From Atopobium sp. oral taxon 416 (GTDB lineage Bacteria; Actinomycetota; Coriobacteriia; Coriobacteriales; Atopobiaceae): DNA of 64,000 nucleotides. The stretch covers positions 1,612,001 through 1,676,000 of the forward strand of contig NZ_CP072380.1 in NCBI RefSeq assembly GCF_018128285.1, given 5' to 3'. How positions within the stretch are numbered: position 1 is the stretch's first letter; each line of letters begins with the position of its first letter. Position numbers and translations under genes: made by a program. The notes below the pieces were generated by a model. That model was not told the origin of the DNA. It was given only the letters and a program-made list of their open reading frames with translations, and did not search any database. This document shows positions 27,389 through 44,334 of the stretch, in pieces.

Positions 27389-27417
27389 TTGACAACGAAC
27401 GTTTGTTCGTATAGGAT
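27389..27417 (+). promoter_or_regulatory. recA promoter with LexA box in the spacer
   Basis: TTGACA (27389-27394) and TAGGAT (27412-27417) are exactly 17 bases apart. Inside the spacer lies CGAACGTTTGTTCG (27396-27409), which fits the Gram-positive LexA box CGAAC-N4-GTTCG with both half sites perfect. LexA binding would cover the whole promoter. Confidence 0.88.
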
Positions 27418-37617: not shown

Positions 37618-38286
37618 CTAATTATTGAATGAGCGGATCAGCGCGGTAACTTTGCCCAGAATGCGGGGATTGTCAGCATAGACAGGCTCCATGGTGTCGT
37701 TTTCTGGCTGCAAACGGATCCGTTCCTTCTCACAGTAGAAGGTTTTGACCGTAGCACTGTCATCGATCAGAGCAACGACGATCTCCCCGTTGTGAGCCTC
37801 CTGCTCTTCCTTAACGACAATGTAGTCCCCATCAAAGATCCCGACGTTGATCATCGACTCACCGTGAACCTTCAAGATAAAGGAACTGGAATCCCCGACG
37901 ATACTTGTCGGCAGTGTCATGTGCTCTTCGACATTCTGCTCTGCGAGGATTGGCCGACCTGCGGCGACGCGTCCCACGACCGGCAGGCTCATCATGTTGC
38001 GATCGGGATCCTCGACCACCTGTGCCAGGGGCTGGCTTTCCTGTTGCGCAGCTGATTTCTGTTCGGATTCATCGGGGACAACCTCGATTGCGCGAGGCTT
38101 CTTGGACTCACGTTTGATGTAGCCGCGGTCCTGCAACACAGTCAAGTACATGTGGACGGTGGACGGGGAAGCAAGCCCAACCGCTTTCCCGATCTCTCTG
38201 ACTGAGGGCGGGTAGCCATGGTTCTGGGTGTAGGAGCAAATGAAATCGTATATTTGCTGCTGACGTTTGCTTAGCTTGTCTCTCAT
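37618..38286 (-). CDS. lexA: SOS repressor LexA
   Basis: Represses DNA-damage genes and cleaves itself when RecA filaments form. An N-terminal winged helix (KLSKRQQQIYDFI through SVREIGKAVGLASPSTVHMY) is followed by a linker and the S24 peptidase domain. The scissile Ala-Gly lies in VAAGRPIL (about residue 108), the catalytic serine in HGESMIN (about 141) and the lysine in SATVKTFY (about 179). The length is 222 residues. A GAGGAG ribosome site precedes the ATG. Its promoter region carries three LexA boxes, so it is autoregulated. Confidence 0.97.
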   Translation of the reverse strand: MRDKLSKRQQQIYDFICSYTQNHGYPPSVREIGKAVGLASPSTVHMYLTVLQDRGYIKRESKKPRAIEVVPDESEQKSAAQQESQPLAQVVEDPDRNMMSLPVVGRVAAGRPILAEQNVEEHMTLPTSIVGDSSSFILKVHGESMINVGIFDGDYIVVKEEQEAHNGEIVVALIDDSATVKTFYCEKERIRLQPENDTMEPVYADNPRILGKVTALIRSFNN

Positions 38287-38312: not shown

Positions 38313-38341
38313 ATCATACGGGAAAATATGGCTCATTGCAA
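38313..38341 (-). promoter_or_regulatory. lexA promoter
   Basis: On the minus strand TTGCAA (38341-38336) and TATGAT (38318-38313) have a 17-base spacer, about 27 bases before the lexA ATG. The -35 overlaps LexA box 3. Confidence 0.75.
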
Positions 38342-38352
38342 ACAAATGTTCT
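38339..38352. promoter_or_regulatory. LexA box 3
   Basis: CAAACAAATGTTCT, two mismatches to CGAAC-N4-GTTCG half sites. It covers the lexA -35. Confidence 0.7.
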
Positions 38353-38359
38353 ATTTGAG

Positions 38360-38389
38360 TTGACACAAACATATGCTCGTCCATACTAA
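38360..38389 (+). promoter_or_regulatory. Divergent SOS promoter facing away from lexA
   Basis: TTGACA (38360-38365) and TACTAA (38384-38389) are 18 bases apart on the plus strand. LexA box 2 fills the spacer, the same layout as at recA. It points at the small frame starting at 38474. Confidence 0.7.
38366..38379. promoter_or_regulatory. LexA box 2
   Basis: CAAACATATGCTCG, two mismatches, one in each half site. It starts exactly 27 bp after box 3. Confidence 0.65.
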
Positions 38390-38392
38390 ATA

Positions 38393-38406
38393 CAAACATT
38401 TGTTCG
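38393..38406. promoter_or_regulatory. LexA box 1
   Basis: CAAACATTTGTTCG, one mismatch to the palindromic consensus. It starts exactly 27 bp after box 2. Confidence 0.8.
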
Positions 38407-38473: not shown

Positions 38474-38569
38474 ATGATGAGATGTGGCGAGTATGAATTA
38501 TCCCTAGCAAGCCCAATCTGCATAGCTGTGCTCGACAGGCCCACTGTAGGGCATCCCATTGAGGTATAG
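38474..38569 (+). pseudogene. 5' fragment of an SOS-controlled small gene divergent from lexA
   Basis: An ATG at 38474 with a GGGAAGG ribosome site opens 31 codons (MMRCGEYELSLASPICIAVL at the start) and stops at 38569 where IS-derived sequence begins. It lies 85 bases downstream of a LexA-boxed promoter. A LysM-like C-terminal fragment in the same orientation reappears at about 40416-40477, just before nrdR. The two are best read as the ends of one gene interrupted by about 1.85 kb of IS debris. In many Gram-positives the gene divergent from lexA encodes a LysM division inhibitor (YneA). The equivalence is inferred. Confidence 0.5.
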
Positions 38570-39460
38570 CTGACAGCTAAACACATCTGAAAGATCTTCT
38601 CCCGGCGAGGCGTTGCGTTCCTTACGTTGTGGTAGTTTCCCGCCGACACGACCTACCGAGGCGATAGTGAACTACCACATGACATATGCCGACAGCTTTA
38701 TGGCTGCCACCTTGAGGCTAGCAGGGGATACGCGCAGCTTAGCACCTGCCGAGTACCGTCCTTTTCTGTCCCGGGACTTCGCTACGTATCCGCCAAAGGT
38801 TTGCCTATGGTGCAGATCTGTGCGCTTCAGGTGTGACGGGTGCAACCGCGACGGCGTCCAAAGATAGCTCTGTCTTGCCTGCGGCAGAATCTTTACCCCT
38901 GCAGTCGGGCACTGTCTTCTATTCAAGGCAACTGCCTGTCTTAGAAGGGGCGATGGTTTTGCTGAAGATCCTTAAGCAGTAAGAGCAAGGCGGCATGCAC
39001 CTGTGACACCAGACTCCTTTGTAGTAGAGGGCACCATGCTCTCACATAAGGTGTGGCTCGACGAGACCTCACTGTCCGCTCGATTCTGCCGAGCGTGTCG
39101 GTTCTCCAAAAACAAAGATCTGCATAGGTGCTACCGCAGACGTGCACAGGGTCACAGAAGGAGGGGTGCAACAAGACGAGCTGGAAAAGGACATAGGATA
39201 CCCTCTGAGGTCATAGCACAAAAGGGTCCGTGCTCGTGTACGACACCCTGGGCCTTAGGGAAGCGATGATTAATTCCCAATAATGTGCCAAAGAGGATCA
39301 GCCACGTGGCCTTTCGCAGCCGGCATGGGCATTAATCATCGTTTCCTTAGGAGTAAAGTGCACGGCGCTAAGGCATGCTGCTGAACAGCGACGATCCCTA
39401 AGGCATGGTCAGCTAGGAGTGCAACCTACTCAAGAGTCTCCCGAGGTCTCACAGCAAATT
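38570..39460 (+). mobile_element. Degraded IS remnant (unassigned, IS1595-like hints)
   Basis: Frames are broken throughout. A zinc-ribbon-like piece (CLWCRSVRFRCDGCNRD, about 38805-38855) is followed by VVEGTMLSHKVWLDETSLS (about 39020-39076), which resembles the first DDE region of IS1595-type transposases. Further pieces read DLHRCY and LVYDTLGLREAMI-like strings. Near the end is an imperfect inverted pair at 39253-39274 and 39331-39351. Ends are not defined. Confidence 0.45.
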
Positions 39461-39463
39461 TAG

Positions 39464-40418
39464 GGCTCTTCGCTACTTATGGTGGGTAGCACTCCTGTAT
39501 CCCCTTGAACACGTGGCGCCCGGACGGAAGGATTTTGCCGGCGGAAGGCTTCGGTCCTAAGGCGCGATATGGATGCTTAAGGCAGGTATGCTGGCAAGGC
39601 TCTTTAAGAGGCCCCATGGGGCTTAGGGACGAATGGGAGCTCTTCGATGTCTGGTTTAAGGAGCGCAGATAAGCACAGGGTATCCTGCATGTGGGGGTCG
39701 CGTACTGGGAGGGCCAGGTGGTGGTGAGCCCCTGTATGCCATAGGAAGTGCGGCACCTGTGACACGTGCGAGAGGACCTTGTGGCATCTTAGCATCTGGC
39801 AATACGATACGATCGTGCACTGCGCGCTGCTAAGGGCCGACTGCCCCAAAGACGGCGTGCATGCTTGCAGGATGTCCTGGGAGGTGCGGCCGAAGACGCA
39901 CTTCTCGAGGCGCAGCTGATAAGTGATGGCGCTCTTTGGCATGAGCGTGGCGGCAATAGCGTATCTGGTGCACGAGACAGCCCACGCGCATATGGTGCCT
40001 GCTGAGCAAGGCGGTATCGCAGGCAAGGGATGCCGCCGACTACTCCGGCATCGTGCGCGTGAGCATAGACGACACCGCCAAAAGGCGCAACCAAAGCTAC
40101 ATCAGCATCATGGCCAACCTCGACCACCAGCGCGCCGTGGCCGTCACGCAGGGCAGGGACAAGGGGGCCTTAGGCAGGCTCTGAGACGAGCTTAAGGAGC
40201 ACGCAGGGGACAGGGAGAAGGTCCAGAAAGTCACGCGCGACATGGCTTTAAGGCATACTCGCTGGGAGTCTCCGAGATGCCCCAGGCCGCACAGATTGTG
40301 GACAGCTTCCATGTGGTGCAGCTCCTGAACGTGAGGTGCGCAGAGAAGCGCGAGTCCGCCAAGAAGCACAAGACAGCTTGCGCAGACGAAATACATATGG
40401 CTCAAGAAGAGGGAGGTG
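39464..40418 (+). mobile_element. ISL3-type insertion sequence, copy 2, right end lost
   Basis: The left end GGCTCTTCGCTACTTATGG and about 950 bp match the copy at 42975. The alignment stops near 40418, within the transposase, where LysM-like coding sequence begins. The transposase is broken by a small deletion near 39905 and by other frame changes. Unlike copies 1 and 3, it keeps TGG rather than TGA at the position of their shared early stop (39878-39880). No right inverted repeat remains. Confidence 0.8.
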
Positions 40419-40477
40419 CTCGATTCACACAACTCCATATCGGCCAGAAATTGGTGATTCCGGTCACAAATAAGTAA
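40416..40477 (+). pseudogene. 3' fragment of a LysM-domain gene
   Basis: The last codons read TQLHIGQKLVIPVTNK and then TAA. L-x-I-G-Q-x-L-x-I-P is the end of a LysM peptidoglycan-binding motif. It lies directly after the truncated ISL3 copy and 116 bp before nrdR. It is interpreted as the tail of the lexA-divergent gene whose head is at 38474. Confidence 0.55.
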
Positions 40478-40535
40478 AGTGTATGAACATATTTTTAAGG
40501 CAGCGTTAATTTTTCTTGGATAGCGCGCCAAAACG

Positions 40536-40556
40536 CCTCCATGTGGCCTCCATGTG
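40536..40556. repeat. Direct repeat upstream of nrdR
   Basis: CCTCCATGTG occurs twice with an 11-bp period, about 40 bases before the nrdR ATG. A protein-binding site is possible; chance is not excluded. Confidence 0.35.
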
Positions 40557-40593: not shown

Positions 40594-41040
40594 ATGCGCT
40601 GTCCAAGGTGCGGATGCGAGGACTCTAAAGTTATCGATTCTCGACCTTCGGAAAATGATGCGATTAGGCGTCGGCGTGAATGCGTTCGTTGCCACTATCG
40701 CTATACAACCTATGAGCGTCTTGAAGAAACACCGCTGATGGTTGCAAAAAAGGATGGTACTAAAGAGACCTTCGACCGGACGAAACTGCGACGGGGTTTA
40801 ATTCGCGCAACCGTGAAACGCAATATCCCCGTGGAAAAACTTGATGTGTTGATTGATGATATCGTGTCGGAATTGCGCGACAAAGGAGTATCTGAGGTTC
40901 CCTCCAAGGAAATCGGCGAAATGGTCTTAAAGCGGCTTCTGAAGCTTGATAAAGTAGCCTATGTGCGGTTCGCTTCAGTGTACCGAGACTTTAAAGATAT
41001 CGATGAATTCAGCGAAGAATTGAGGAGTCTTTCTCAATGA
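40594..41040 (+). CDS. nrdR: Transcriptional repressor NrdR
   Basis: ATP/dATP-sensing repressor of ribonucleotide reductase genes. An N-terminal zinc ribbon with CPRC (residues 3-6) and CVRC (31-34) is followed by the RRRECVRCHYRYTTYERLE signature and an ATP-cone domain (about 48-135). The length is 148 residues. dut overlaps the stop by 4 bases, so the two nucleotide-pool genes are coupled. Its neighbourhood with lexA fits a damage-response setting. Confidence 0.96.
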   Translation: MRCPRCGCEDSKVIDSRPSENDAIRRRRECVRCHYRYTTYERLEETPLMVAKKDGTKETFDRTKLRRGLIRATVKRNIPVEKLDVLIDDIVSELRDKGVSEVPSKEIGEMVLKRLLKLDKVAYVRFASVYRDFKDIDEFSEELRSLSQ

Positions 41041-42974: not shown

Positions 42975-44334
42975 GCTCTTCGCTACTTATGGTAGGTAGC
43001 ATATCTGCATCCCCTTGAGGGCGTGGCCTTTAAACGGCAGTATTTTCCCCAACAGGAGGCTGTGTTCTGGAGGTGCGATATGGATATTCAGGCAGGGATG
43101 CTAGCAAGGCTCTTCGAGAGGTCGATGGGACTCAGCGACGAATGGGAGGTCTCCGACGTCTGGTTTAAGAAGCGCGAGGAAGCGCAGAGCGAGCTCCATG
43201 TGAGGGTCGCGCACAGGAAGGGCCAGGCAGTGGAATGCCCTGTCTGCCATAGGATGTGCAGCACCTACGACACGCGCGAGAGGACCTTGTGGCATCTCGA
43301 CATCTGGCAGTACGAGACCATCGTGCACTGCGCCGTGCCCAGGGCCGACTGCCCCAAGGACGGCGTGCATGCCACAAGGATGCCCTGAAAGGTGCGCCCG
43401 AAGACGCACTTCACAGCGCTCTTCGAGGCGCAGGTGATAAGTGATGGCGCTCTTTGGCATGAGCGTGACGCCGGTCGCGCAGCAGCTGCACGAGACAGCC
43501 CACGCGCATATGGCGGCTGCTGGGCAAGGCCGTCGACGAGGCGAGGGATGCCGCCGACTACTCGGATGTCGTGCGCGTGGGCATAGACGACACCGCCAAA
43601 AGGCGCAACCAGAGCTACATCAGCATCATGGCCAACCTCGACGGCCAGCGCGCCGTGGCCGTCACGCAGGGCAGAGACAAGGGCGCCTTAGGCAGGCTCT
43701 GCGCCGGGCTCGAGGAGCACGGAGGGGACCGGGCGAAGATCCAGGAGGTCACGCGCGACATGGCCGAGGCATACTCGCTTGGCGTAGCTGCAGAGATGCC
43801 CCAGGCCACACAGAGCGTGGACAGGTTCCATGTGGTGCAGCTCCTGATGAGGGCGATCGACCCTGTGAGGTGCCAAGAGCGGCGCGAGTCCGCCTCGAAG
43901 CGCCGGCAGCTCGCAGGGACGAAGTACCTGTGGCTGAAGAAGAAGGAGTCGCTCACAAAGCGCCAGCGGAGGCACGCGCCTGCCAGATGGGAGAGGCGCT
44001 GCAGGACGTCTACTCATGCGCAGACAGACAATCGGCGGCCAGGGCCCCAGAGCGCCTCTGCTCGTGGATGGCGCACTCTGCCGTGGCCGAGATGAAGAGT
44101 GTGGCGAAGACCCTCAGGAAGGAGCGGGAGGGGGTCCTGAACTGGTGGAAGAGGGGATCTATCAACTCCTTCCTGGAAGGGCTCAACTCCGTCGTCCAGT
44201 CGGTCCGCAGCATCGCCAGGGGCTTCAGAAGCATCGCCTACTTCAGGACAATGATCTTCCTCAGGCTAGGCCGTCTGGACTTCACGGCCCAGAAGAAGCT
44301 GGCATGCGCTACCCACTAGAAACGTCGAAGAGCC
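42975..44334 (+). mobile_element. ISL3-type insertion sequence, copy 3, complete ends
   Basis: About 1360 bp with imperfect terminal inverted repeats (left GCTCTTCGCTACTTATGG, right ending ACGTCGAAGAGCC; 19 of 26 positions match) and an 8-bp duplication TTTTTTGG. Ends, size and 8-bp duplication all fit the ISL3 family. Its single transposase gene is broken, so it could move only with a transposase supplied in trans. Confidence 0.9.
43080..44319 (+). pseudogene. ISL3-family transposase, interrupted
   Basis: The product would be about 410 residues. The N-terminal zinc-finger region reads well in one frame from ATG 43080 (ECPVCHRMC, then TLWHLDIWQYET) until an in-frame TGA at 43386-43388, where copy 2 has TGG. 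The frame then shifts near 43437 (to MALFGMSVTPVAQQLHETA), again near 43505 (to IWRLLGKAVDEARDAADY, then VGIDDTAKRRNQSYISIM), and once more near 43975. The intact C-terminus ends SIARGFRSIAYFRTMIFL and stops at 44319. The breaks near 43437 and 43505 are present at the same bases in all three copies of the window. Confidence 0.85.

Follow-up and report, generated by a model that had tools for sequence, protein, structure and literature searches.

The window, by which we mean the whole stretch of 64,000 nucleotides analysed here, comes from Atopobium sp. oral taxon 416, whose genome is assembled as one contig of 3.0 Mb. Two intact genes frame the locus of interest. The repressor gene lexA lies on the minus strand (37618..38286; NCBIfam TIGR00498, 223.8 bits with a cut-off of 110.95, together with the Pfam domains LexA_DNA_bind and Peptidase_S24), and nrdR lies on the plus strand (40594..41040; TIGR00244, 195.8 bits with a cut-off of 124.65). 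When this lexA was compared with named records, rumen MAGs and Olsenella and Atopobium species were the nearest, with Collinsella next. Upstream of lexA there are three LexA boxes, recorded without strand, namely CAAACAAATGTTCT (38339..38352, 52 nt from lexA), CAAACATATGCTCG (38366..38379, 79 nt from lexA, with 1 mismatch to the search pattern) and CAAACATTTGTTCG (38393..38406, 106 nt from lexA); the corresponding boxes of the congener L003 are located at 49, 77 and 104 nt. The probable promoter of a gene that has been lost here (38360..38387, plus strand) was found by eye, and its positions were checked: TTGACA at 38360-38365, a spacer of 16 nt and CATACT at 38382-38387. Its TTGACA aligns with the same hexamer in L003, L004 and L005. 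Besides, recA is within the window and has a box (ACGAACGTTTGTTCGT) at 27395. Since recA and lexA have both kept their boxes, the SOS circuit itself seems to be in place, and the boxes at this locus are probably retained because lexA represses itself through them.

To the right of this promoter, an ATG at 38474, which is 187 nt from the lexA start and preceded by the Shine-Dalgarno-like GGGAAGG, opens a frame of 31 codons (38474-38569), so a start with a ribosome site behind the lexA-divergent promoter, as noted in a preliminary description of this DNA, does exist. The same description took all 31 codons as a gene fragment, but only the first 11 can belong to the host gene. At 38508 (CAAGCCC...) begins the left end of an IS, which is seen elsewhere in the genome between unrelated flanks, so the other 20 codons are read from the IS. 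The 5' stub is 11 codons and 1 base long (38474..38507, plus strand), with its breakpoint defined by the IS copies. With this length it offers no basis for matching by sequence, and it is identified as the start of a LysM gene by where it lies, by its promoter and by its ribosome site. As a spacing measure that is independent of the choice of start codon, we used the distance from lexA to the Gly of a conserved N-terminal motif in relatives; this is 178-272 nt (median 227), and the insertion point in the window is 221 nt from lexA. The start codons of the relatives are 163-230 nt from lexA, a range biased by construction because the start codon nearest 187 nt was picked in each of them.

The DNA that follows the stub was described as two different IS remnants. 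It is indeed IS DNA, but it contains three elements, including a palindromic repeat nested in the first IS. The first IS remnant (38508..39439, plus strand) has its left end and lacks its right end, and the homology to its copies stops at 39439. The copies in L113 and L114, which measure about 1.0 kb and have inverted ends, share ~95% identity with it over the main stretch, and three more copies have about the first 0.5 kb in common with 74-75% identity. The element is left unclassified, as a Pfam search of two frames in the window and three frames of copy L116 returned no match that could give it a family name. In 841 columns it has 24 private differences, while its two relatives have 19 and 18. 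The palindromic repeat, an insert of ~92 bp recorded without strand, occupies 39253..39351 including its flanking repeats, with CCTTAGG on either side, and copy L114 of the IS represents the empty site. Scoring of 40 out of 195 candidates revealed at least 32 other near-full copies of this repeat across the genome, and the one in the window is undecayed, with 97-99% identity to its best copies.

Next comes a stretch of 24 bases (39440..39463, no strand) that is outside most copies of either element, and then an ISL3-family element (39464..~40424, plus strand), whose left end GGCTCTTCGC is present and whose last ~0.4 kb are missing. The six full copies inspected are 1371-1413 bp long, and 18-24 of 30 bases at their two ends are complementary, of which the remnant has the left end only. 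Its frame at 40277-40477 scores 21.0 bits with PF01610, below the cut-off of 23, and the transposase domain is found in a sibling copy at 43571-44095 (PF01610, 111.5 bits). In total, the genome contains 43 ISL3-type matching stretches, the window remnant included. Identity between the remnant and the 15 best other copies is 82.7-86.3%, compared with 90.3-94.2% between each of those copies and its own nearest neighbour. Compared with a consensus of these 15 copies, in which the window copy was left out, the remnant differs at 129 of 955 positions (13.5%) and the 15 copies at 4.7-9.1%. As both IS remnants have diverged from their kin, the loss of the gene is probably not recent and would be old when measured against IS turnover, an estimate that allows for an ISL3 element which may have been divergent already on arrival. 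The loss may be a property of the species, which is represented by one genome. A second ISL3-family copy of near full length (L146, 42969-44339), with no plus-strand frame of more than 292 codons, is located about 2.5 kb downstream of the remnant; the interval between the two contains nrdR as well as genes that look by eye like dut and a permease gene.

After the ISL3 remnant, the end of a LysM gene appears on the plus strand (40425..40477), where LHIGQKLVIPVTNK and a stop codon are encoded at 40433-40477. This 3' stub, recognised by a C-terminal profile and by the spacing between its stop and nrdR, keeps about the last 14-17 codons, and the stop is 116 nt before nrdR (53-177 nt in 25 relatives). 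With an 11-residue profile built from the same 25 relatives, the stub obtains 24.4 bits, and the relatives obtain 20.0-33.1 bits on their own profile. A score of 24.4 bits was reached in neither of two shuffling controls, one with the plus strand of the 250 nt ahead of nrdR (0 of 5000) and one with both strands of the entire 2.1 kb (0 of 500). A C-terminal profile of 16 residues used earlier, which overlapped the IS, gave no significant match, as its best score in the region was 13.8 bits and shuffles had a mean of 9.6 and a maximum of 24.1. The 11-residue profile covers the part after the breakpoint only and was picked once the 16-residue result was known, so its shuffle count should be read jointly with the spacing and with the gene order of the family. 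The LysM end that had been reported in the same orientation just before nrdR is confirmed as an in-frame sequence with a match beyond chance, ending at 40477. Between this stub and nrdR, GCCTCCATGTG is tandemly duplicated at 40535-40556, and the duplication is missing in the aligned congeners L003 and L004.

To see the locus in relatives, we searched nrdR in 60 genomes (our own included), 55 of which matched, and took 30 loci, of which L003-L031 are the 29 relative ones. A LysM frame of 137-191 codons (with the start codon nearest 187 nt) is open between the divergent lexA and nrdR in 25 of these 29, and both congeners sampled (G001 and G002) are intact. The 26th is L009 of G013, from another genus, which has the LysM gene at C145:7974-8420 and nrdR another 1.85 kb away (G013:C145:8421-10268). 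The remaining three consist of L020, with a frame that has no LysM, and L028 and L031, with no frame. Generally, lexA-LysM-nrdR is the usual order in the sampled Coriobacteriales, and a literature search of limited scope found no paper on it. In a set of 80 named loci, whose groups were assigned from titles and ranks and which is not independent of the 29 because several genomes are common to both, 12 of the 13 loci from Atopobiaceae have the LysM gene, and so do 40 of the 41 of Collinsella type; the two misses (L042 and L079) have a contig edge beside lexA. The other 26 named loci come mostly from Clostridia; 13 of them satisfy the same filter for position, two more (L101 and L105) lie on short contigs with the gene next to lexA, and in one, the Coriobacteriales MAG L093, nrdR is present without a LysM match. 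Sister species without any LysM gene at this place, or end fragments that match different proteins, had been named beforehand as observations that would speak against a single broken gene; taken as a whole, the comparison does not bear this out, as both congeners and 26 of the 29 loci have the gene, though a few relatives are without it. The candidate explanation that two different genes stand at the two ends was rejected.

For the intact proteins, the proposal that the lexA-divergent gene is of the YneA type agrees with the profile results. Four of the 25 relatives were scanned; all four have a C-terminal LysM domain with PF01476 above its cut-off, and in all four the best NCBIfam family is YneA (NF010723), with 56.3, 53.5, 47.5 and 57.8 bits. 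None of the four is above the curated cut-off of 60 bits, so on these scores the protein is to be called YneA-like and not a YneA equivalog. Peak 19-residue hydropathy is 1.84-2.99 in the 25 relatives, which means at least one hydrophobic stretch in each of them, and the alignment reveals a conserved motif in the tail ahead of the hydrophobic segment, G-S-x-A-L followed by L-x-L-x-E-G-G. A LexA box is located upstream of all 25 genes, 47 boxes in total compared with 0.095 in shuffles, with at most one mismatch allowed to a pattern that was drawn partly from the window region.

The intact relatives resemble YneA of Bacillus subtilis in being divergent from lexA, in having LexA boxes and in the succession of a hydrophobic segment and a C-terminal LysM domain. 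The N-terminal tail of YneA is probably shorter than that of the intact relatives. In Mycobacterium tuberculosis, nrdR presumably follows ChiZ / Rv2719c. As ChiZ is described in PMC6851548, it is likewise actinobacterial, with one transmembrane (TM) segment, a LysM domain and a gene near lexA; the likeness is one of description. Cell-wall hydrolase activity has been reported for ChiZ. By description again, SosA of Staphylococcus and DivS of Corynebacterium are lexA-linked SOS division inhibitors with one TM segment and no LysM (PMC6851548), a plan comparable to that of the gene without LysM in G018 and G089 (see below) and not to the present remnant.

Taken together, we are highly confident that the locus is the remnant of a lexA-divergent LysM gene under LexA-box control, probably for a YneA/ChiZ-like SOS division inhibitor, which was hit by an IS at codon 11-12, received further elements and lost its membrane and LysM regions by deletion. 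In the history we propose, the IS would have inserted first at codon 11-12, further elements would then have arrived in or beside it, and a deletion would finally have run from inside the ISL3 element into the last codons of the gene. This order is the one that we infer, and there is no target-site duplication to compare because both IS remnants are without a right end. The preliminary description of a LysM gene cut in two by IS elements is right in that both ends remain, but the middle with the membrane and LysM regions was deleted and not merely interrupted. Neither an intact TM segment nor an intact LysM domain is present in this genome's copy, which consists of the first 11 and about the last 14-17 codons; as the relatives' proteins have 137-191 aa, about 80% or more of the gene is gone. 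The event is an ordinary and known kind of loss in a known kind of gene, but it is a clear one. A gene that is likely to act in a DNA-damage checkpoint has been lost naturally here within well-defined limits, and since the congeners are intact, the cost of living without the gene is open to comparison between close relatives.

As for the consequence, a study on B. subtilis reports that YneA needs both TM and LysM: without LysM the protein reaches midcell and division is unblocked, and TM mutations abolish both midcell localization and the division block (PMC13396833). By analogy, the remnant, which has no TM segment and no LysM core, should not act. A search of the source genome with the family profile gave no second LysM relative; its two best matches (E 0.028 and 0.82) fall within frames as long as 687 and 968 codons. 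SOS division arrest mediated by the LysM protein is thus likely to be lost in this strain, as predicted from the gene content.

Arrest might be kept through a different protein under LexA control, such as a small LysM-free membrane protein in the style of SosA or DivS, neither of which has a LysM domain (PMC6851548). We think this unlikely. It would fit with the sister genus represented by G018 and G089, whose lexA-divergent gene has the N-terminal motif and a hydrophobic C-terminal stretch and no LysM, and with a strict LexA-box pattern, MGAACANNTGTTYK, which has 10 matches at 7 sites compared with 1 in the control, although it was drawn partly from the lexA boxes. Besides the two sites at lexA, five genomic sites match it, such as L154 and L160. 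However, the 131-aa ORF at L154 has no strongly hydrophobic segment (peak 1.35) and no Pfam match, and a broad pattern, CRAACRNNYGTTCK, had 11 genome matches against 23 for the reversed control, a result below control, so the LexA regulon is not defined by it. Regarding the position of these two sites, the box at L154 (G000:C1:71850), CGAACATATGTTCT, starts 38 nt before the 131-aa ORF, and the preceding ORF is by eye like serS; the box at L160 (G000:C1:1954773), CAAACAGATGTTCT, has its start 136 nt ahead of a gene for a class A penicillin-binding protein.

Misassembly of the junction through confusion of the repeated IS copies is very improbable. Repeats are abundant, as the ISL3-type stretches number 43 with the one at this locus and the small repeat has at least 32 near-full copies, but the genome was assembled as one contig, lexA and nrdR flank the insert in the family order, and the ISL3 remnant (82.7-86.3%) and the first IS (~95%) both differ from their nearest copies, so reads are unlikely to have been confused between copies. 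Equally far-fetched is that the remaining frames are expressed and functional, since the 31-codon frame, which would give a 31-aa SOS peptide from the retained SOS promoter and ribosome site, is IS end for 20 of its codons, and the open 66-codon ISL3-LysM fusion frame at 40277-40477 keeps only the last LysM residues.

We also counted the gene across the family with its profile (E 1e-5). It turned out that 122 of 140 family genomes match, and so do 92 of the 101 genomes of good quality (at least 90% complete, at most 5% contamination); these are counts of profile matches, for part of which the adjacency to lexA was checked. The nine good-quality misses are the source genome, G022, G024, G073, G034, G076, G080, G018 and G089. 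Neither lexA nor nrdR was recovered from G076, which is uninformative on the absence of the gene. In G022, G024, G073, G034 and G080 the lexA-nrdR gaps are 230-332 nt, too short for a LysM gene of usual length. By a pattern search, LexA boxes remain in four of these five gaps (G022, G024, G073 and G034) and not in that of G080, and four other genomes of the genus of G080 match the family profile. G018 (L020) and G089 (L162), two species of one genus, have longer gaps (605 and 602 nt), each occupied by an open frame in which the N-terminal motif is kept in part (AGTSAL ... VIDG) and a C-terminal hydrophobic stretch is present without LysM.

These cases suggest, tentatively and with slightly less than an even chance in our judgement, that Atopobiaceae repeatedly drop or remodel the SOS division brake and keep the lexA-nrdR pairing: the gene would be wrecked by IS here, absent as an ORF in G080 and three other genera, and turned into a LysM-free membrane protein in the two species sampled from one genus. 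G022, G024, G073 and G034 may share one loss event or may lack the gene ancestrally. If the pattern is true, the Atopobiaceae would be a natural test of the purpose of LysM and of the brake itself, and this wider pattern is a more interesting lead than the single locus. In another genome, the family profile matches a region with one in-frame TAA (G154:C173:3318-3797), possibly another broken copy.
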